Shown here one piece after another: positions 17,546 to 56,910 of a stretch of 64,000 nucleotides of DNA (position 1 is the stretch's first letter; the number at the start of each line of letters is the position of its first letter). The notes beneath the pieces are model-generated. The model searched no databases. It worked only from the letters and a program-made list of their open reading frames with translations, and was not told the DNA's origin. This DNA is from Paenibacillus tianjinensis (GTDB taxonomy: Bacteria; Bacillota; Bacilli; Paenibacillales; Paenibacillaceae): assembly GCF_017086365.1 (NCBI RefSeq), contig NZ_CP070969.1, forward strand, positions 992,001 through 1,056,000. Reading direction: 5' to 3'. The translations under genes were made by a program, and so were the position numbers.

Positions 17546-19427
17546 GTACGCCCAGCATGGGCGTCATCTCTAGGGTGAAAGTCCCGAGCGGGGGCTGGCA
17601 AGCGCCTACCGTTAGCCAAGGGCAAGGGTGTCCACCGTGAGGCGGAATCTGAAGGAAGCCGGAGGCAAAAGCACGACCTGAGGTACACGAATCCAATTTG
17701 AGGCGGTTGCAGCCGGATGAGTCACCCATACATGACAAAATCCAAAGCTGCCAAGGGCTGCAGCCGTAAACTTGGGCAGGTGCGGGCGGAAAGATGACGT
17801 TCTTATCTGGGGAGGCCTGCCGGAGGGGCAAGGAAAAAAAAACTTGTAACCGTAGCCGAGAGGCTGCGCTGAACCGGCAGGAGTCAGCAGAGGCCATAGT
17901 ACGTAAACTGCTGCAGCGTTTACGGAAGGGCTGAACCGAAAGGAGAGAGGAAACCGATGCGTTCGCATGAAGTGCAAAGACAGCAGAATATCTCGCAAGA
18001 GAGCTTACGGCAAAGAGAAGCGGTGAAGCCGCCAGGGTATGCCGGAGCGCCGAGTTCTTCGTCGGCACAAATCGCCCCTTCCTCTCGCGAAGCAGAGAGC
18101 AACTTGCTGGAGCGAATGCTCGAAGGAGACAACCTTCGGCTCGCGTATAAACGAGTGGTACAAAACGGAAGAGCGCCCGGTGTGGACAATGTAACGGTAG
18201 CGAATCTACAAGCTTATTTGAAAACACATTGGGAATCGGTGAAAGCCGAACTTCTAGCGGGGGCTTACAGACCTGCGTCAGTCAAACGGGTGGAAATCCC
18301 CAAACCCGGAGGCGGTGTAAGGCTACTAGGCATCCCAACCGTTATGGACCGTTTTCTCCAGCAGGCGCTTCTACAAGTCATGAACCCGATCTTTGACGCA
18401 GAGTTCTCCTGGTATAGCTATGGCTTTCGACCGGGGAAAAGTGCACATGACGCCGTGAAACAAGCGCAAAGATATATCCAAAGTGGCCTCCGGTGGGTCA
18501 TAGACCTCGATCTGGAGAAATTCTTTGACCGGATAAACCACGACATGCTGATGGCAAGAGTGGCGCGGAAAGTGACAGACAAAAGAGTACTGATCCTGAT
18601 TCGTGCGTATCTGAACGCCGGAGTTATGGTGAACGGAAAGCTGGAACGTAGCCGGGAAGGAACGCCCCAAGGCGGTCCGCTCAGTCCGCTTTTGGCAAAC
18701 ATTCTACTGGACGATCTGGATAAGGAATTGGCCGGACGCGGGCTGCGTTTTGTACGCTATGCGGACGACTGTAATATCTTTGTGGCGAGTAAACGAGCGG
18801 GCGAACGGGTCATGGAATCGGTTAGCCGATTTGTAGAAGGAAAGCTGAAACTGAAAGTGAACCGGGATAAAAGTGCGGTAGCAAGACCGTGGCACCGAAA
18901 GTTCTTAGGTTTCAGTTTCCTGAGTCAGAAGCAGGCAACGATTCGATTAGCTCCGAAAACAATCTCGCGATTCAAGGAAAGAATCCGTGAACTAACGAAT
19001 CGAACGTGGTCTATTTCCATGGAAGAGCGAATTCGCCAAGTGAACCGGTATGTGATGGGATGGCTTGGCTATTTCCATCTGGCGTCGGCGAAGAAACACC
19101 TCCAAACGCTGGACCAGTGGATTCGGAGAAGGCTGCGAATGTGCCTGTGGAAACAATGGAAACGAGTGCGCACACGGATCCGCGAACTCCGGGCGCTTGG
19201 GGTGCCTGAGTGGGCCTGTTTCACGATGGCAAACTCACGGCGAGGCGCATGGGAAATGTCCCGGAACACAAATAATGCCCTTCCCACTTCCTACTGGGAA
19301 GGGAAAGGGCTGAAAAGTTTGCTTTCACGTTATTTGGAGCTTTGTTAACCTTTTGGAACCGCCGTATGCGGACCCGCATGTACGGTGGTGTGAGAGGACG
19401 GGGGCTCGCCGCCCCCTCCTACTCGAT
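17546..19427 (+). mobile_element. Group II intron (bacterial class C type) with its maturase
   Basis: The 5' end GTACGCCCAGCATGGGCG resembles the GUGCG-type intron start (A replaces G at the third base). The 3' end has domain V (CCGTATGCGGACCCGCATG TACGGT, 19363-19386), then domain VI with GGGGGCTCGCCGCCCCC and the terminal CTACTCGAT at 19419-19427. It begins three bases after the T-run of T-box terminator 2; insertion directly behind a terminator hairpin is the known habit of class C introns. It encodes an intact reverse transcriptase. Exon junction would be TTTTTGTG | TTGTGATC. Confidence 0.88.
17957..19348 (+). CDS. ltrA: Group II intron reverse transcriptase/maturase
   Basis: 463-residue intron-encoded protein. 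Reverse-transcriptase blocks in order: LGIPTVMDRFLQQALLQ, YGFRPGKSAHDAV, VIDLDLEKFFDRINHD, GTPQGGPLSPLLANILL (about 235-251) and the catalytic YADD (268-271). The maturase/X region follows (GWLGYFHLASAKKHLQTLD, RRLRMCLWKQWK). No C-terminal HNH endonuclease is present, as in class C introns. It is intact and probably able to support splicing and retrohoming. AGGAGAGAGGAAACCG precedes the ATG. Confidence 0.95.
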   Translation: MRSHEVQRQQNISQESLRQREAVKPPGYAGAPSSSSAQIAPSSREAESNLLERMLEGDNLRLAYKRVVQNGRAPGVDNVTVANLQAYLKTHWESVKAELLAGAYRPASVKRVEIPKPGGGVRLLGIPTVMDRFLQQALLQVMNPIFDAEFSWYSYGFRPGKSAHDAVKQAQRYIQSGLRWVIDLDLEKFFDRINHDMLMARVARKVTDKRVLILIRAYLNAGVMVNGKLERSREGTPQGGPLSPLLANILLDDLDKELAGRGLRFVRYADDCNIFVASKRAGERVMESVSRFVEGKLKLKVNRDKSAVARPWHRKFLGFSFLSQKQATIRLAPKTISRFKERIRELTNRTWSISMEERIRQVNRYVMGWLGYFHLASAKKHLQTLDQWIRRRLRMCLWKQWKRVRTRIRELRALGVPEWACFTMANSRRGAWEMSRNTNNALPTSYWEGKGLKSLLSRYLELC

Positions 19428-50689: not shown

Positions 50690-50707
50690 GGCAGGAGGAT
50701 GAACCCC

Positions 50708-52099
50708 TTGCGGAAGATATATTCAGCAGATGCAGTGTACATGCAGGATCAGTTCAGAGCAAACGGCGCTTTGCTGGTGGATGGCGGGAGGATAGCAGAT
50801 ACGGGGGACCGTGACTCGCTGCTGAACCGTTATCCGGACGCAGCACATATCCAGTGGAAGGGAAAGGCCATTGTCCCCGGCACCGTCAACTCACATAATC
50901 ACTCGTTCCAGAGCCTGCTGCGCGGGATTGCGATTGATAAGCCATTTCTGGAATGGCGGGATCAGGCGCTGTACCGGTACACTCCGCTATTGGACGAAGA
51001 AGCCATTTATACCGGGGCGCTGCTTGCATTCGGAGAGATGCTGCGCTACGGCGTGACAACGGTCAGCGACTTCTTCTATGTGCATAACGGCGGCACGGCG
51101 CATGACGAAGCCATGATCCGGGCGGCGAATGATCTGGGTATCCGCCTGGTCTTCGCCCGGACCATGTACGACTGGGCAGGTGCGCCGCTGGCCTACCGCG
51201 AAACGGTGAATGAAGCTGTGGAGCGGACGAGGCAGCTGGCCAAGAAATATCAGGGGAATCCAATGGTTACGGTTCATCCGGCCCCGCACAGTCCGCATGC
51301 GGCTTCGCCGGAGATGATCCAGGCCGGCCACCGGCTGGCTCAGGAGCTGGATACGCCGTTTCATATCCATGTAGCTGAGGAAATGTTCGAGGTCGAGGAA
51401 ACGCTGCAGAACTACGGGCTCCGGCCTGTACATTATCTCGATTCGCTGGGCGTGCTGGACGAGCGGATGATCGCCATTCATCTGGTCTGGCTGGAGGACT
51501 CCGAAATTGAACTGATCGGCCGGAGAAAAGGGTCGCTGGCGTATTGCCCGTCAAGCAATATGTTCCTGGCGGACGGGGTTACGCGGATTCCCGATCTGCT
51601 GAAGGCAGGCGTCAAAATCACGCTCGGCACGGACGGCGGGTGCAGCAATAACCGGATTAGCGTATATGAGGAAATGCGCATGTGCGCGCTCTTGCAGAAG
51701 GTCAGCCGGCTGGACGGCACGTGTATTACTGCTGATCAGGTATACCGGATGGGAACCTCCAGAGCTGGTGAAATTCTGCGGCTGCCGGTCGGGTCCCTGG
51801 AGATTGGACAGCACGCAGACTTCGTGGCGCTTGATATGCACGATCTGTCTCTGGCACCGAGAAAAGAGCTGTTCGCCAACATGGTCTATTCTATGCAGCC
51901 CGGAGCCGTATCCACGGTCGTTGTTGGGGGCAGGATCGTCTTCGAAGACGGAAAGCTCATCGCGGTGTCCGAGTCCACAATAGGCAGACGGGTGGATGAA
52001 TTATTTGAGAAATGGGAGAGCCTGGCGTCAACGGGGAATCATGAAGCAAATGGTACAGATTGCGGCTTGCCAGCAGCAGAAGATAAAGGTCTAGTCTGA
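50708..52099 (+). CDS. Amidohydrolase, HutF-like (formiminoglutamate deiminase candidate)
   Basis: About 463 residues of the metal-dependent amidohydrolase superfamily: VPGTVNSHNHSFQSLLRGI (metal HxH), VHPAPHSPHAASPE, PFHIHVAEEMFEVEE, IAIHLVWL and LGTDGGCSNNRISVYEEM. These fit the formiminoglutamate/guanine/TrzN-like deaminase group. An ATG at 50699 touches AGGAGG directly, so the in-frame TTG at 50708, with nine bases of spacing, is the better start. With hutI before and the M20 gene beside it, conversion of N-formimino-glutamate to N-formylglutamate is likely. Confidence 0.8.
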   Translation: MRKIYSADAVYMQDQFRANGALLVDGGRIADTGDRDSLLNRYPDAAHIQWKGKAIVPGTVNSHNHSFQSLLRGIAIDKPFLEWRDQALYRYTPLLDEEAIYTGALLAFGEMLRYGVTTVSDFFYVHNGGTAHDEAMIRAANDLGIRLVFARTMYDWAGAPLAYRETVNEAVERTRQLAKKYQGNPMVTVHPAPHSPHAASPEMIQAGHRLAQELDTPFHIHVAEEMFEVEETLQNYGLRPVHYLDSLGVLDERMIAIHLVWLEDSEIELIGRRKGSLAYCPSSNMFLADGVTRIPDLLKAGVKITLGTDGGCSNNRISVYEEMRMCALLQKVSRLDGTCITADQVYRMGTSRAGEILRLPVGSLEIGQHADFVALDMHDLSLAPRKELFANMVYSMQPGAVSTVVVGGRIVFEDGKLIAVSESTIGRRVDELFEKWESLASTGNHEANGTDCGLPAAEDKGLV

Positions 52100-52112
52100 C
52101 CCTGGAAACTTA

Positions 52113-52187
52113 AAACAGCGACAGCAAAGGACGAAAAAATAAAGTCCTGACTGTCGCTGTTTCATTGAACTAACGTTTCCCGTTAGC
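52113..52187 (-). repeat. Cassette-type element A: hairpin plus palindromic motif
   Basis: Motif AACTAACGTTTCCCGTTAG (52168-52186) lies next to a long hairpin (AAACAGCGACAG/CTGTCGCTGTTT with an inner AGGAC/GTCCT stem, 52113-52162). On the minus strand it follows the phosphotransferase gene; on the plus strand the hairpin also serves as terminator of the hut operon. It marks the left edge of the accessory block. Confidence 0.75.
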
Positions 52188-52326
52188 GCAACGACTTACT
52201 CTGTTGAATTTCGTGTTCCTCAACATAAAGCGGCATCAGAGAAGGCGGATCGTACCTTATCGCGGACTTTAAACGACAAAATGGTGCCGATAGCCATAGC
52301 CCCATAGCCGCAACGAAATAATGAGC

Positions 52327-53241
52327 CTAATCCGACAGTGCCCGCATGATGTTGGATTTCGCCTCTGCCGCAATCGCTTCATTCCCGTCATCGACCGCTT
52401 GCATTAAGATCAGTATGGGGATGTATACCGCGATCAGCCGCGCCAGCAGCTTCGTTTCCTCGTCCGCTCCTCCGTACGTTTCGAAAAACACGCCGCGAGC
52501 GTAAGGTGGTAAAAAGCTATAAGCAACGCTCAAATCGCAAGCCGGGTGACCTACGCTCAGATCACCCCAGTCAATGATGCCGGAAATGATTCCGTTCTCA
52601 TTAACAAGCATATTTTTGAAATGAAGATCGCCATGTAGCAGTGCATTCACCGCCTCGACACGGTCCTTTTGCAGCCTGCATATATACGCTTCGATCACAC
52701 TGGACTCCTCCGGCGACAAGTGTTCAACCACCTTCGATAGAAAGCCCTCCAATTTCACTTTGCGCGATGCTATGTCCGTCAAGTTTCGATGATCTTGCTG
52801 AACTCCGCACTTCAGCGCCGCCTGCACCGGAAACTCATGCAATCTCCGCAAAAATTTCGCCAGCGTCTCTGCCGATAAAGCCCGGCGTTCTTCCGTCAAA
52901 CCGATTGAGAAATCCCCTGGCACGTAGGCATAGCCAAGAAATGGTGCCGGGTATTTGTCAGTTGCTTCGCCATAAAACAACGGTTTCGGATAGGGGAGGG
53001 TCATATATGTCTCCAGCTTCGGCAGCAGCTTCCCTTCCATACGAATCGAGCCAACTGCAATCGTTCTTCTTGGAAACCGGAACACGTACTCGTCACCGAT
53101 GAGAAAAACCGTATTGTCCCAGCCCCAGCCCAATCGCTTCACTTGCTTCGATGACAGCTGAGGGAATTGTCTGCCGATCAGCGTCCGCGCCTGCTCTTCG
53201 TTAACCTCCCACTCCGCATCCCATACATTCGATCCTCCCAT
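52327..53241 (-). CDS. Aminoglycoside-phosphotransferase-like kinase
   Basis: 304 residues of the APH/choline kinase fold: DNTVFLIGDEYVFRFPRR (ATP Lys replaced by Arg-rich strand), the catalytic loop LLHGDLHFKNML (HGD...N) and the metal motif IIDWGDLSVGHPACDLS. Could phosphorylate an aminoglycoside, macrolide or small metabolite; resistance is not shown. GAGGAGG lies ten bases before the ATG. The 140 bases downstream to element A hold no gene. AT-richer than the core genes around it. Confidence 0.85.
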   Translation of the reverse strand: MGGSNVWDAEWEVNEEQARTLIGRQFPQLSSKQVKRLGWGWDNTVFLIGDEYVFRFPRRTIAVGSIRMEGKLLPKLETYMTLPYPKPLFYGEATDKYPAPFLGYAYVPGDFSIGLTEERRALSAETLAKFLRRLHEFPVQAALKCGVQQDHRNLTDIASRKVKLEGFLSKVVEHLSPEESSVIEAYICRLQKDRVEAVNALLHGDLHFKNMLVNENGIISGIIDWGDLSVGHPACDLSVAYSFLPPYARGVFFETYGGADEETKLLARLIAVYIPILILMQAVDDGNEAIAAEAKSNIMRALSD

Positions 53242-53328
53242 GAATTGTCAGCCTCCTCGTTCCTTACGTTATTTAGATGTTTACATACCCTGGAAGTTAC
53301 GCATAACTGCCTGTCCGTATTCTGAGTT

Positions 53329-53378
53329 GAGGGCTACCTCGCGGCCCTTCATTGTTAAACTATCGTTCCCCGTTAGTT
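53329..53378 (-). repeat. Cassette-type element B
   Basis: Motif AACTATCGTTCCCCGTTAGTT (53358-53378) minus one base of the usual TTTCC, next to a short hairpin AGGGC/GCCCT (53330-53348). The stop codon of the GNAT remnant lies inside the motif. Confidence 0.65.
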
Positions 53379-53561
53379 CAGCACGTTGTTAAACTGGTCG
53401 CGGGTTAATTCATAATCAATTGAAGATTGTAATTCACCTAATTGGTTTCTCCATGAATTATGGCGGACAGCCATTTTACGGAAACCCATTTTCTCATACG
53501 CGTGCTGAGCCCGTATATTATTAATATTAGTGTCTAGAATGTTCTGTAATATCCCAACTCG
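53373..53561 (-). pseudogene. GNAT acetyltransferase remnant (C-terminal 62 residues)
   Basis: Reading leftward on the minus strand gives ILQNILDTNINNIRAQHAYE then KMGFRKMAVRHNSW, the last helix and strand of a GNAT enzyme, ending QFNNVLN and a TAA inside element B. A TAG stops the frame at 53562-53564 and no N-terminal part is found before it. A broken gene, probably cut by recombination between neighbouring units. Confidence 0.75.
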
Positions 53562-53667
53562 CTAAACAATGCATTGATTAACATCATCAAAAAATATCTA
53601 TATATATATTTTTTACTCACGATTCCGACTGCGTACATCTTTATTAAAATTCAGGACATGTTCTCAA

Positions 53668-53721
53668 TCATTCTGCCCATTAGTTTAATAGCGGCCATTC
53701 ACTATAAGAGAGTCGCCGCTA
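53668..53721 (-). repeat. Cassette-type element F
   Basis: ATTCTGCCCATTAGTTTAAT (53670-53689) next to a hairpin TAGCGGC/GCCGCTA (53689-53721). It lies just past the stop of peptidase E. The motif matches the left motif of element D (CTGCCCGTTAATTGAAT). The bases 53562-53667 between the remnant and this element show no gene. Confidence 0.6.
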
Positions 53722-53752
53722 ACATCAATCTCCTGCTCAGCCCACGTGGATA

Positions 53753-54421
53753 TCAGGTCGTGAGATTCTTCCAATTCCCTTCGGAAACCACTTCAACAGC
53801 TCCATCGATCACTTTGATGGCGGTTTGATCATCAATCGCATATGTCGGCACTCGCATCCCGGCGGCCCAGCTCTCAGCAGCAGCCATGGTGTTGTCAGGC
53901 AGCATCTCATGGTCAAGATGCGGAAATATTGCAAAATCAACCAGACCCAGCGTTTCATCGCCACCGGCGGGTGGAGTCCAACCAACGAAGAATTTCCCGA
54001 TGTTAGGTGCCATAACCATACTCCCGGCGCTCATTCCCACATAAACTGCCTGCAGCGAAGGTAAGAGGTCGGCCAGTCCGGACTGCCGCATCCAGTGGTT
54101 CAGATAGAGGGCGTCACCGCCCGCCACTAACAGGACGTCAATCCCCTGGACCAGCGGTACCCAGCGGTCTTTACTGATACTTGGAAGCGCAGTGAGCTCA
54201 AGTATGCCAACAGACTTCCAGCCCAGGTCGACCATGGGGTTTTCGGATTTCCCGCTGATGAACTCCCAGGTATTGACGCCAGGGCCGACCCAGGGGTGTC
54301 CGTACATCGCGGTGGGAATGCACAGGGCGTTGGAGTCGGCAATCGGCTTGTCCAGCATGTCAACTAGCGCGTCGTGTATGCTTTTGTTATTAATGCCTGC
54401 AGATGTTAGTAATAATTTCAT
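53753..54421 (-). CDS. Peptidase E-like protein (S51 family)
   Basis: 222 residues of the class I glutamine-amidotransferase-like fold: LLLTSAGINNKSIHDAL, VLLVAGGDALYLNHWMRQSGL, the nucleophile elbow YVGMSAGSMVMAP (Ser about 131) and FAIFPHLDHEMLP with the catalytic His. Hydrolyses N-terminal Asp peptides in characterised members; here substrate is open. Within the accessory block, same strand as the other units. Start has GGAGTGAGGAT upstream. Confidence 0.85.
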   Translation of the reverse strand: MKLLLTSAGINNKSIHDALVDMLDKPIADSNALCIPTAMYGHPWVGPGVNTWEFISGKSENPMVDLGWKSVGILELTALPSISKDRWVPLVQGIDVLLVAGGDALYLNHWMRQSGLADLLPSLQAVYVGMSAGSMVMAPNIGKFFVGWTPPAGGDETLGLVDFAIFPHLDHEMLPDNTMAAAESWAAGMRVPTYAIDDQTAIKVIDGAVEVVSEGNWKNLTT

Positions 54422-54786
54422 ATCCTCACTCCTATTCGCTTGGAACTTCGTAATTTCCTTATCGCCAAGTTCAATAGCTTTACGATGATACTGCTGAAGT
54501 CATCATAGAGGGAATGGCTACTCTGAGAGGATGGTTAATGAAGGGTCAAGTTTATGTAGAGTACAAGCGGTTAGGTTTTTTTGCTGTACAGACTGAAACT
54601 GAAGACAATTATTTCTCCGTAATCTTTCACACTGCAATAATAGCATATAACCATATATTGGGGTTTAAAAGTTTGTTAGCTTAATAAGATTTAGTCATAG
54701 TCTATGATCTAGTTCTCAGTCTCATTCTGATGACAAATTGTTGCGTGCGAACGTACATCAATAAGAAGAAAGGGACTAAAAGAAGA
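54422..54786. other. AT-rich 365-base gap
   Basis: Between peptidase E and hairpin C. I see no gene with a ribosome-binding site; it probably holds the promoter of the peptidase E gene and remnants of rearranged units. Confidence 0.4.
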
Positions 54787-54862
54787 AGCGGCGACCAAGA
54801 CTTTATTACCCAAGTCTCGGTTGCCGCTGTTGCCATTAAACTAACGTTTTCCCGATAGCTTA
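54787..54862 (-). repeat. Cassette-type element C
   Basis: Hairpin AGCGGCGACCAAGACTT with AAGTCTCGGTTGCCGCT (54787-54828) next to motif AACTAACGTTTTCCCGATAG (54839-54858). Lies 16 bases past the stop of the DUF402 gene on the minus strand. Confidence 0.75.
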
Positions 54863-54878
54863 ATAAATTGTCCTACCT

Positions 54879-55421
54879 TTACATCTTTTGAAGCAAGAAT
54901 TCTTTATGTTCTTCTGATAGCTTCAATAAAGTAAACTCATTGTGCTTAATTAATTCACTGAGCATATTTGATTCTTCCCTAGCTAAATCATAAAGTGGCT
55001 TATTAATGATTCCGCTGATAAATGCTCCTTCCAGCTCATCTGTGTCCTTATTAATTACTTCCCCAGATGGTAATACAATTAAATCCAGAAACAAATCGTC
55101 CATCCACGGCACATTGTTGTCACTAACACCATTCTTGGAACATATATCTATATACCACTGCACGATATTACCTTTTGAATCAAACATTGTTGTTACCGAA
55201 TGATTTCGACCTGAAGGGAATTGCTGAAGCCATAGATAGCCATCGTTAACAATACAAATTTCTTCTCCGTTATATTCAACGTAAAGAGGGTCTGATACTT
55301 TGAGAATTCGAAGAAGGGTCACGTAACCATTGAAGTTATCCGATTCGATAAAAGACTGAGCATACTCCCTTACTAAAACACGTTTCCGGTCTGAACGGTC
55401 CCCAAATTTTCTTTTTAGCAC
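54879..55421 (-). CDS. DUF402 domain protein
   Basis: 180 residues from the GTG at 55421, which has GGGGGG eight bases upstream; the longer reading to 55472 lacks one. Contains IVNDGYLWLQQFPSGRNHSVTTMFDSKGNIVQWYIDIC and PWMDDLFLDLIVLPSGEVINKDTDELEGA, the core of the DUF402 phosphatase-like beta-barrel family. Reaction unknown for this member. Lower GC than the flanking core genes. Part of the accessory block with element C after its stop. Confidence 0.85.
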   Translation of the reverse strand: MLKRKFGDRSDRKRVLVREYAQSFIESDNFNGYVTLLRILKVSDPLYVEYNGEEICIVNDGYLWLQQFPSGRNHSVTTMFDSKGNIVQWYIDICSKNGVSDNNVPWMDDLFLDLIVLPSGEVINKDTDELEGAFISGIINKPLYDLAREESNMLSELIKHNEFTLLKLSEEHKEFLLQKM

Positions 55422-55478
55422 CAAAATCCCCCCAATTGTACAAATTGCTCTACATCGAGATAATGATACCATATATTG

Positions 55479-55570
55479 GAACTATTCTGCCCGTTAATTG
55501 AATAAAGGCAGCCGATCGAGTATACCGACCGGCTGCCCTTTCGTGTTTGAACTAAGGTTTCCCGTTAGGG
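55479..55570 (-). repeat. Cassette-type element D, complete: motif - hairpin - motif
   Basis: Left motif GAACTATTCTGCCCGTTAAT (55479-55498), hairpin GGCAGCCGATCG/CGACCGGCTGCC (55507-55537), right motif GAACTAAGGTTTCCCGTTAG (55549-55568). The two motifs are direct repeats (GAACTA, 5-6 bases, CCCGTTA). It lies between the DUF402 and DHFR-like genes and is the fullest copy in the block. Confidence 0.75.
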
Positions 55571-55591
55571 TAATCACCATAAGTGACAAGG

Positions 55592-56167
55592 TCATCTTAC
55601 CGTCTGGTAGACGAGACCTATGGCTCCAGAATCAAAGGTCTTGTTTTCGATTAGCTTAAGATTGATCTTCTCCCTGAGTCCCTGGAATAACGGCAACCCC
55701 TTACCGATTAGGACGGGAGAAACCGTGATTTTATACTCATCAATTAAATCAAGCTCCATAAGGTGATGTGCAAACCTAGGACTGCCGAGGATGACCATAT
55801 CCTTGCCTGGCTGCTGTTTGAGGTTATTGATCTCTTCCTCGATATCTTCTTTTACGAGTCTGGAATTATTCCATTCGACTTTCTCCAGGGTTGTGGAAAA
55901 AACGATTTTGGCTGTCTTTTCGATCCATTCGGCATGATCCCGTTCATGCTGCGAAGCTGACGGGTTCGAAGGTACAGATGGCCAGTAGCTGTGCATCATC
56001 TGATAAGTCCCACGTCCCCAAATGACAGTGTCGGCAGTACTCAAAATTTCTTTCGCGTGTTTCTCCAGATCAGCATCGTAGGAAATCCAGCCAATATCCA
56101 TTTCACCATTCGGCCCTTCTACAAAACCGTCAAGCGATGCGTGCAGAAAAAGGACGAGTTTTCTCAT
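55592..56167 (-). CDS. Dihydrofolate reductase family protein (RibD C-terminal type)
   Basis: 191 residues from the ATG at 56167 with AAAGGAG upstream; an earlier ATG at 56203 lacks a good site. KLVLFLHASLDGFVEGPNGEMDIGWISYD, DTVIWGRGTYQMMHSYWP, KDMVILGSPRFAHHLMELDLIDEYKITVSPVLIGKGLPLF are typical of the DHFR/RibD-like YwjB group. NADPH-dependent reductase of unknown substrate; not the housekeeping DHFR. Rightmost gene of the accessory block. Confidence 0.88.
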   Translation of the reverse strand: MRKLVLFLHASLDGFVEGPNGEMDIGWISYDADLEKHAKEILSTADTVIWGRGTYQMMHSYWPSVPSNPSASQHERDHAEWIEKTAKIVFSTTLEKVEWNNSRLVKEDIEEEINNLKQQPGKDMVILGSPRFAHHLMELDLIDEYKITVSPVLIGKGLPLFQGLREKINLKLIENKTFDSGAIGLVYQTVR

Positions 56168-56271
56168 GTTCAGTTCTCCTTTGTTCATGAAGGATATCTT
56201 CATCTACATTATACATTATCTACATTTTGCAGAATTCAACTTGGGTTGTTTCTTATGGATGGCTAACCCAA

Positions 56272-56319
56272 TACCTGCCCATTAGTATATTGCCTCGACA
56301 GTTTAGTTCTTTATGAGGC
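56272..56319 (-). repeat. Cassette-type element G, degenerate, right edge of block
   Basis: ACCTGCCCATTAGTATAT (56273-56290) next to GCCTC/GAGGC (56292-56319) with TTTAGTTC in the loop. Resembles motif plus hairpin of elements F and D, and lies where the block meets the core-like GNAT gene. Confidence 0.45.
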
Positions 56320-56385
56320 CAAGGTCTGGCGATATAATAATTTGAATAAATATGAATGCTTCAGGCGGAAGGAGAGATTATCTGC

Positions 56386-56910
56386 ATGTACATAAAAGTT
56401 CTAAATCCGGCCGATGCCGAAAAGTACCGGGAGCTACGGCTTGAGTCACTGCTGAACCATCCGGAAGCTTTTCTGAGCACCTATGAAGCGGAGAAGGGGC
56501 TGCCGTTCGAAACCACGCGCAGCAGGCTGGAGCCTGCGGAAGGCAGGTTCACTCTGGGCGGCTTTACGGAGCAGGATGAGCTGGCGGGAATGGTTACTTT
56601 TATCCGGGAGGACAGGGCGAGAATCTCCCATAAAGGCAATGTCTATGCCATGTATGTGAGTCCCGCAGCACGCAAGCAGAAGCTGGGATACCGGCTGATG
56701 ACGGAACTGCTTGTGCGGGCCGGGCAGCTGCCGGGACTGGAGATTGTTAACCTTACGGTGTTCTCGGACAACCATGCGGCGAAGCGGTTGTATACTTCGC
56801 TGGGATTCACCTGCTATGGTACGGAGCGGAAGGCGGTTAAGCTGGACGGCGTGTATCTGGATGAGGATCTGATGACGCTGGAGCTGAATCAACTCCTGCT
56901 GTATCCATGA
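56386..56910 (+). CDS. GNAT family N-acetyltransferase
   Basis: 174 residues from the ATG at 56386 (GGAAGGAG upstream; a reading from 56356 would include that site). LNPADAEKYRELRLESLLNHPEAFLSTYEAE, VYAMYVSPAARKQKLGYRLMTELL (acetyl-CoA loop) and NLTVFSDNHAAKRLYTSLGFTCYGTE. Substrate unknown. GC and codon use match the core chromosome, unlike the block to the left. Confidence 0.9.
   Translation: MYIKVLNPADAEKYRELRLESLLNHPEAFLSTYEAEKGLPFETTRSRLEPAEGRFTLGGFTEQDELAGMVTFIREDRARISHKGNVYAMYVSPAARKQKLGYRLMTELLVRAGQLPGLEIVNLTVFSDNHAAKRLYTSLGFTCYGTERKAVKLDGVYLDEDLMTLELNQLLLYP

Follow-up and report, generated by a model that had tools for sequence, protein, structure and literature searches.

The 64,000-nucleotide stretch of the Paenibacillus tianjinensis genome analysed here (contig NZ_CP070969.1, positions 992,001 to 1,056,000; hereafter the window) carries, at positions 52113 to 56319, an array of minus-strand accessory genes punctuated by short palindromic sites and hairpins. 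We propose, with a probability of roughly three in four, that this array represents a mobile cassette system comparable to integrons or dif modules, which has its own Xer-type recombinase and two alternating types of site, and that the copy in the window has come to lack the enzyme. Movement of units at the sites is shown by genome comparison, whereas which enzyme acts, what intermediate forms and what the hairpin does are inferred.

The core site consists of inverted arms of about 10 bp (TTNARCTAAC and GWTAGYTNAA) flanking a spacer of 6-7 bp, and it occurs in two versions of the same polarity. The L half, CTAAC-GGGAAAC-GWTAGTT, is located at the gene stop and has a spacer that is mostly GGGNNAC, shortened to GGGTAC in some arrays; the R half, CTAAC-GGGCAG-GWTAGTT, lies ahead of the next gene and has the spacer GGGCAG. 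Base frequencies computed for 246 L halves and 278 R halves agree between the two versions in the left arm and in the right arm and differ in the spacer, although the halves were found by pattern, so that conserved positions are partly built in and the informative variable ones are the A or G before CTAAC and the A or T after G. An inverted polarity of L and R, as in dif modules, was considered and ruled out by these matching arm profiles. Read in the direction of the genes, a complete element in the window runs from the gene stop through the L half (CTAACGGG-AAAC-GTTAGTT), a hairpin of its own sequence and the R half (CTAACGGGCAG-GWTAGTT) to the next gene. Modules that hold a gene extend from R to L, and those that hold a hairpin, about 50 bp long, from L to R; the two normally alternate and are normally exchanged apart from each other.

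The array lies in a single-contig genome of 6.27 Mb, between an amidohydrolase gene on the left (50699-52099, plus strand) and a GNAT gene on the right (56356-56910, plus strand). Its minus-strand genes encode an APH-family phosphotransferase, a GNAT remnant, a peptidase of family S51, a DUF402 protein and a RibD_C/DHFR-like protein; all were assigned with Pfam except the GNAT remnant, which was recognised by translation only. The features are as follows.

52113-52162, minus strand: hairpin of element A (z -7.5 as folded single-stranded DNA with the L half)
52168-52186, minus strand: L core site of element A, downstream of the APH gene (homology ends at 52186 in genome G006 and at 52185 in genome G090)
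52327-53241, minus strand: cassette gene 1, APH-family phosphotransferase (PF01636, 1.1e-30)
53302-53322, minus strand: degenerate R core site of element B (starting point of the homology shown by the APH unit)
53330-53348, minus strand: hairpin of element B (weak alone, z -0.95)
53358-53376, minus strand: L core site of element B, including the stop of the GNAT remnant (exchange boundary in genome G029 at 53380, 4 bases beyond)
53377-53669, minus strand: cassette 2, 5'-truncated GNAT remnant (a reading frame; missing from the locus in G029 and G006)
53670-53688, minus strand: R core site of element F
53690-53720, minus strand: hairpin of element F, no L half seen alongside
53753-54421, minus strand: cassette gene 3, peptidase E-like, S51 (PF03575, 5.7e-17; 83.5% nucleotide identity to locus L059)
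54787-54828, minus strand: hairpin of element C, no R half seen (z -4.2 with the L half)
54839-54858, minus strand: L core site of element C, imperfect, with an 8-nucleotide spacer, one base longer
54879-55472, minus strand: cassette gene 4, DUF402 protein (PF04167, 4e-16; about 91% nucleotide identity to locus L138, P. glycanilyticus)
55480-55502, minus strand: R core site of element D (homology resumes at 55480 in G006)
55504-55541, minus strand: hairpin of element D (z -3.4 for 55478-55570)
55550-55568, minus strand: L core site of element D (homology resumes at 55565, inside the site, in G029)
55592-56203, minus strand: cassette gene 5, RibD_C/DHFR-like (PF01872, 3.2e-21)
56265-56288, minus strand: R core site of element G, forming the array's outer end (in genome G040, homology is regained at 56281, within the site)
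56292-56319, minus strand: hairpin of element G, where the array borders on the core genome

An earlier note, made from the letters of the window, had described six elements that share one motif beside a hairpin, and all six were found where it had placed them. The motif it named, of the AACTAACGTTTCCCGTTAG type, is present at A (52168-52186), B (53358-53376), C (54839-54858) and D (55550-55568), whereas F (53670-53688) and G (56265-56288) hold the other half, CTGCCCATTAG; its single shared motif resolves into two versions, L and R, of one polarity. The stop codon that it saw within the motif of B reads TAA in the sequence, and the direct repeats that it reported around the hairpin of D are the R and L halves (55480-55502 and 55550-55568) of an element that has both. 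Its placement of elements after the stops of minus-strand genes also applies to F, which follows the peptidase E gene, except that no L half is seen there; the array is further incomplete in that R is not seen beside C or A and is degenerate in B. The genes had been called AT-richer than the core, which agrees with the GC content of the array as a whole (45.5%, against 58.6% and 53.9% in the flanks) but not with that of the APH gene (52.2%) or the peptidase E gene (54.4%).

Taken alone, the window is weak evidence for the motif, since 4 of 100 shuffles do as well as its 4 matches at up to 2 mismatches. The wider search that the earlier note had proposed gave a different picture: a 22-base pattern, with up to 2 mismatches allowed, found 594 matches in 88 of 100 genomes of the genus and 1 match when reversed, and many of the matches listed stand in same-strand series spaced up to a few kb. 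The P. tianjinensis genome itself has four L halves at 0-1 mismatch, three of them within the window array; at up to 3 mismatches, the reversed control gives more matches than the pattern (32 and 11). A second, diverged array is present near 5.54 Mb. Gene slots between R and L of 200-3000 bp (n = 117) have a median length of 791 bp, and their longest open reading frame of at least 80 amino acids points in the cassette orientation in 97, in the opposite one in 9 and is lacking in 11. Two side observations concern the spread of the sites. The same small gene (METYVNIDFGNSPF...) occurs in the P. tianjinensis genome at C1:4904210 and C1:5542820 (loci L012, L014, L017 and L308) with core-site remnants near each copy, a cassette present twice, and 19 viral contigs (L214-L232) carry an exact L-type site, L232 having two of them 70 bases apart.

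Comparison of the same locus in relatives placed five of six inner boundaries of exchanged segments at the motif (genomes G029, G006 and G040). In G029, both flanks are 95-96% identical to the window, and the segment 53380-55565, with the GNAT remnant, peptidase E and DUF402 units, is swapped for an inositol-phosphatase-like gene, a gene of unknown type and an LRR/copper-amine-oxidase-N gene; the left boundary lies 4 bases past the L half of B and the right one inside the L half of D. Homology with G006 stops at 52186, which is the base of element A's L half on the side of the gene, and restarts at 55480, in the R half of D, the interval being occupied by an SDR gene and an HxlR regulator. In G040, homology restarts at 56281, within the R half of G. 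A total of 15 loci were fetched via the amidohydrolase. The locus is empty in four of them (G095, G088, G078, G064), where the two flanking genes are adjacent and no half-site is found between them at up to 4 mismatches. In G008, G041 and G059, at most 0.4 kb separates the amidohydrolase gene from a ZIP gene, without a GNAT match, and in G081 these two genes are 3.7 kb apart with no recognised half-sites between them. The right flank was not found within the fetched stretch in G055, G030, G074 and G037, nor in G090, where homology stops at 52185; G090 makes up the 15 loci together with G006 and G040.

Gene units of these arrays are found again in other species. For the APH unit, identity amounts to 96.6% in P. 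pabuli, 96.1% in P. radicibacter and 92.9% in P. eucommiae; its L half is followed by a different sequence in P. pabuli and P. radicibacter, and shorter or lower matches to the unit are found in loci L174 and L203. The core gene hutU matches the window copy at 67% in P. radicibacter and 70% in P. eucommiae; no hutU match was obtained in P. pabuli. The SDR-HxlR unit of G006 has 96.3% identity over 1733 bp in P. methanolicus. The suggestion of the earlier note that units are shuffled by recombination at the motif thus holds up in two respects, as relatives show an empty locus or other cassettes with boundaries at the motif, and as the gene units stand in other surroundings in other species. Its idea that a gene and its element form one exchange unit calls for correction, as gene and hairpin usually move separately. 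These data also bear on a scheme in which the genes are immobile and the L-hairpin-R elements are small transposons, derived from a unit of L, recombinase and R, that inserted after them. Such an origin would fit the recombinase unit described below, which has the same ends and some of whose homologies start at L and end at R; it is nonetheless very unlikely, given that gene modules from R to L occur in several species with other sequence past L and that a single locus gains and loses entire genes.

Breakpoints were then counted in an all-pairs comparison of 97 array loci, which together span 1.46 Mb and have 527 half-sites (five loci were excluded for lack of half-sites), using homologies of at least 250 bp and at least 70% identity that do not cover the recombinase, and a window of -12 to +24 around each half-site. 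Homologies end near a half-site in 53 of 216 cases against 2 at random, 44 of them at L and 9 at R, and start near one in 30 of 196 cases against 7 at random, 23 at R and 7 at L. A gene usually moves without its hairpin, as shared stretches mostly begin in R and finish in L. Crossovers could be placed more narrowly in pairs with the same gene. In 22 such pairs of at least 80% identity, gene-linked identity reaches the L half and drops to background as soon as the spacer becomes informative (bases 8, 9 and 13); in 15 pairs, there is no more than background identity to the left of the R half, and the link to the gene appears from about its base 10-12. These shifts place the crossover in CTAACGGG for both L and R.

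The hairpins appear to be modules in their own right. A module of about 95 bp from element A (52091-52186) recurs in loci L021, L044 and L058 at 89.6-91.4% identity, the match stopping at 52186. Across 73 L-R slots of 20-130 bp (median 51 bp), hairpin strength averages z -3.83 against -0.12 in control segments, and z falls below -2 in 59 of the 73 slots against 5 of 73 controls. At least 4 T within 8 bases past the stem are found in 34 of the 73, with no consistent T run; some of the hairpins may therefore act as terminators, but not all. The earlier note had offered as its alternative that the elements are terminators favoured by such accessory genes, for which the strong hairpins and the T residues past the stem speak. 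We regard this as a remote prospect and, as a full explanation, as contradicted by the comparison of loci and breakpoints: it leaves the core sites and the breakpoints within them without a reason, and a general type of terminator would be commoner in the P. tianjinensis genome, whose 6.27 Mb contain four L halves that are near-exact. Within the cassette model the hairpin may act as a terminator all the same. A single fold of the attC kind, with L and R as one stem, was considered and rejected: among the 12 of 73 folds listed, 11 have a long central hairpin and only 5 pair the L arm with the R arm. As a further observation, a repeated word of the AATAAAGTnnTAGACTG type occurs near arrays and inside some hairpins (window 52085-52165; L058 15450-15600 and 18720-18790).

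No recombinase was found within the window, as the earlier note had said of an integrase; the co-occurring recombinase that it proposed to look for was found inside such arrays in relatives. In genome G018, a 280-residue tyrosine recombinase lies inside an array in cassette orientation. Its domain matches PF00589 (Phage_integrase) at 1.1e-33, its best match in the PDB is XerD (1a0p, 1.1e-31), and the active-site residues R-K-H-R-H-Y are kept in 65-66 of 66 aligned recombinases. Profile scores are about 1e-52 to 1e-54 for XerC, XerD and XerA compared with 8.7e-24 for IntI (best stretch, residues 207-268). The protein nevertheless falls below the NCBIfam cut-offs for XerC, XerD and XerA, and on the IntI model (TIGR02249) it reaches 84.4 bits with a cut-off of 265.

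Of 100 genomes of the genus, 28 have a relative of at least 65% identity, in many cases a broken one. At the level of the order, 88 of 392 genomes and 21 of 49 genera have a match at 1e-60. From the GTDB collection, the best 80 of 176 relatives were kept, mostly from Paenibacillus, with a few from Brevibacillus, Cohnella and 'Bacillus' and one from a metagenome-assembled genome; at least one half-site is found at 75 of these 80 loci, and two half-sites on the opposite strand were noted among the loci listed (L137, L158). The flanks of 58 full-length matches (200 bp on each side, internal stops allowed) were searched for a half-site within 160 bp at up to 5 mismatches. L lies upstream in 33, R downstream in 31 and both in 21 of the 58, as opposed to L in 9 and R in 19 of 290 control windows, and to 2 and 5 of the 58 on the opposite strand; this enrichment indicates that the recombinase unit often fills the hairpin slot between L and R. 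Genomes with the recombinase have a median of 5 sites and those without it 3 (p 0.0013), and the recombinase occurs in 0 of 12 genomes without sites. The P. tianjinensis genome retains a 40-residue remnant of the C-terminal part, 85% identical, at C1:365121-365240 (L133), with no array seen beside it.

Two observations were made on recombinase genes. In L058 (18140-18190), L055 (about 8200), L066 (about 5750) and L142, the recombinase gene or a remnant of its start is preceded by a similar leader just past the L half, and the leader hairpin (AAAACCTCCC...GGGAGGTTTT) covers the ribosome-binding site of the gene; it could control translation of the recombinase. Separately, loci L071-L094 (G005, G012, G049, G035 and others) carry tyrosine recombinases that score up to 1.3e-33 on the integron integrase model; they match it in two pieces, omitting about positions 180-233, and also occur in genomes without sites (for example G012).

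More distant relatives, at 47-52% identity, are found on plasmids of Peribacillus, of Sporosarcina and of a record named Arthrobacter citreus, while no match of at least 60% was found in the plasmid or phage collections. The Sporosarcina and Arthrobacter citreus plasmids (47-50%) are laid out in much the same way but have different spacers in their sites, such as CAACTAAC-TGATGC-GTTAGTT and TTCAACTAAC-GGGGCAG-GTTAGTTGAA; minus-strand genes such as NUDIX and GNAT lie between the sites, and hairpins between several of them. In CP053689, the recombinase, placed by eye, is inverted between an L and an R half. This record (L235, CP053689.1) is entered as Arthrobacter citreus; the nearest plasmid relatives of its recombinase are in Bacillales, and the organism name may be wrong.

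The identity of the enzyme also bears on whether the array is an integron in the strict sense, with attC sites that fold as single strands and are recombined by an IntI integrase, the window then being a cluster of attC sites lacking an integron integrase (CALIN). We consider this unlikely. It would account for the four-box layout with two inverted pairs flanking a hairpin, for the stop adjoining the first box, for the same-strand arrays of accessory genes, for the pairing of L and R arms in 5 of the 12 folds listed and for a crossover next to CTAAC, as in attC. It sits poorly with the genomes of the genus, 0 of 100 of which have IntI above the cut-off, and with an array recombinase that scores better as XerC, XerD or XerA and often lies between L and R within the array; moreover, genes usually travel without the hairpin, and crossovers fall at L as well as at R. 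A process with no site-specific enzyme at all, in which ordinary DNA uptake is followed by homologous recombination that shuffles the genes between conserved repeats, appears improbable as well. Many arrays have no recombinase in the same genome, and the P. tianjinensis genome has only the remnant, as this process would allow. The shared stretch is, however, about as long as the core site, which is probably little for an exchange of the RecA type; the crossovers are concentrated in CTAACGGG, and recombinase genes occupy the same slots.

Under the cassette model, the Xer-like recombinase whose gene often takes the hairpin place between L and R in related genomes would be the acting agent. It would join R with R or L with L, releasing the modules in between as circles, which would then enter other arrays; if sites pair by spacer, this would account for the alternation of modules. 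The hairpin module may shield adjacent genes from each other by terminating transcription, or may assist a single-stranded form of the site. The array of the window would be a derivative without the recombinase, relying on a lost or foreign enzyme.

Several points weigh against this model. The evidence consists of sequence comparison. At the locus itself, G029 has no recognisable site at the 55565 boundary, and the left break of G040, at 52016, is not at a site. Most homology ends (163 of 216) and starts (166 of 196) lie away from recognised sites, as would be expected if sites have decayed or escape recognition; pairs were also counted in both directions, and as distinct positions 42 of 187 ends and 29 of 168 starts lie near a half-site. 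The mapping of crossovers uses few pairs, several of which represent one APH gene and are not fully independent. The APH unit of P. eucommiae retains a hairpin related to that of the window, and locus L070, among the cases listed, has a module end fused directly to an R-type spacer, contrary to strict alternation. As for the enzyme, no half-site is seen at 5 of the 80 recombinase loci at up to 3 mismatches, and at up to 5 mismatches the L half is lacking in 25 and the R half in 27 of the 58 matches, some arrays using a variant L spacer. The association of the recombinase with the number of sites ignores kinship, and of the 72 genomes out of 100 that have no relative at the 65% level of identity, 60 carry sites nonetheless.

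Elsewhere in the window, the segment 17221-19427 holds a T-box leader and, after it, a group II intron that matches the Rfam models D1-D4 and Intron_gpII. An intron of the attC type was considered here and set aside: the word CCGTTAG at 17609-17615 lies 16 bases before the Rfam intron match and is probably part of the intron 5' region rather than one of the array sites.

Paenibacillus genomes are large and rich in accessory genes. If the cassette model is true, a widespread cassette system would explain how single accessory genes, such as phosphotransferases, GNATs and SDRs, spread between species, and would hint that integron-like arrays arose a second time, from Xer recombinases. The two-site design offers a simple test of how spacer identity orders modules, and the sites provide a direct handle for finding cassettes in many genomes. 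Whether the system amounts to a third bacterial gene-capture platform besides integrons and Xer/dif modules, with a Bacillales Xer-derived recombinase that itself occupies the hairpin slot and with gene and hairpin modules exchanged independently via two spacer-coded sites of the same polarity, is a question on which we see the chances as even. No description of such a system was found in the open-licence PMC literature, judged mostly by listings and the beginnings of abstracts, with preprints outside the search.

In comparison with known systems, the arrays take an intermediate place in layout between integrons and dif modules, and depart from both in features that were examined. They resemble integrons, which comprise IntI, an attI site next to it where cassettes enter, and arrays of attC cassettes, in their mostly single, same-strand accessory genes, in the stop next to the first site box, in the four-box site around a variable hairpin, which is the layout of attC, and in gene sets that vary between relatives with breakpoints at the site. 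They differ in that the recombinase is Xer-like rather than IntI and often lies inside the array between L and R, and in that gene and hairpin are usually exchanged separately, whereas an integron cassette comprises the gene and attC with a crossover at the far end of attC, an arrangement that the breakpoints here do not follow, 44 of the 53 homology ends near half-sites being at L, ahead of the hairpin. According to the main text on IntegronFinder 2.0, integrons are very rare in Firmicutes, with a single complete one in Limnochorda pilosa and a few CALIN, and the name Paenibacillus does not occur in that text (PMC9024848). The array recombinase shares size, catalytic residues and overall similarity with XerC, XerD and XerA, and differs from them in scoring under the NCBIfam cut-offs and in being often broken or absent. 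The dif (pdif) modules of Acinetobacter plasmids likewise have two alternating module types, two arms around a 6-bp spacer and a Xer-type recombinase. The pdif sites, however, alternate in orientation and use XerC/XerD, whereas L and R have the same polarity and different spacers, and a separate recombinase is found in the arrays of relatives; the host Xer proteins may act on the sites as well, in particular where an array has no such recombinase. Furthermore, one of the two module types here is a hairpin of about 50 bp, and the loci belong to Paenibacillus and its relatives, in which they are located on chromosomes and large contigs.

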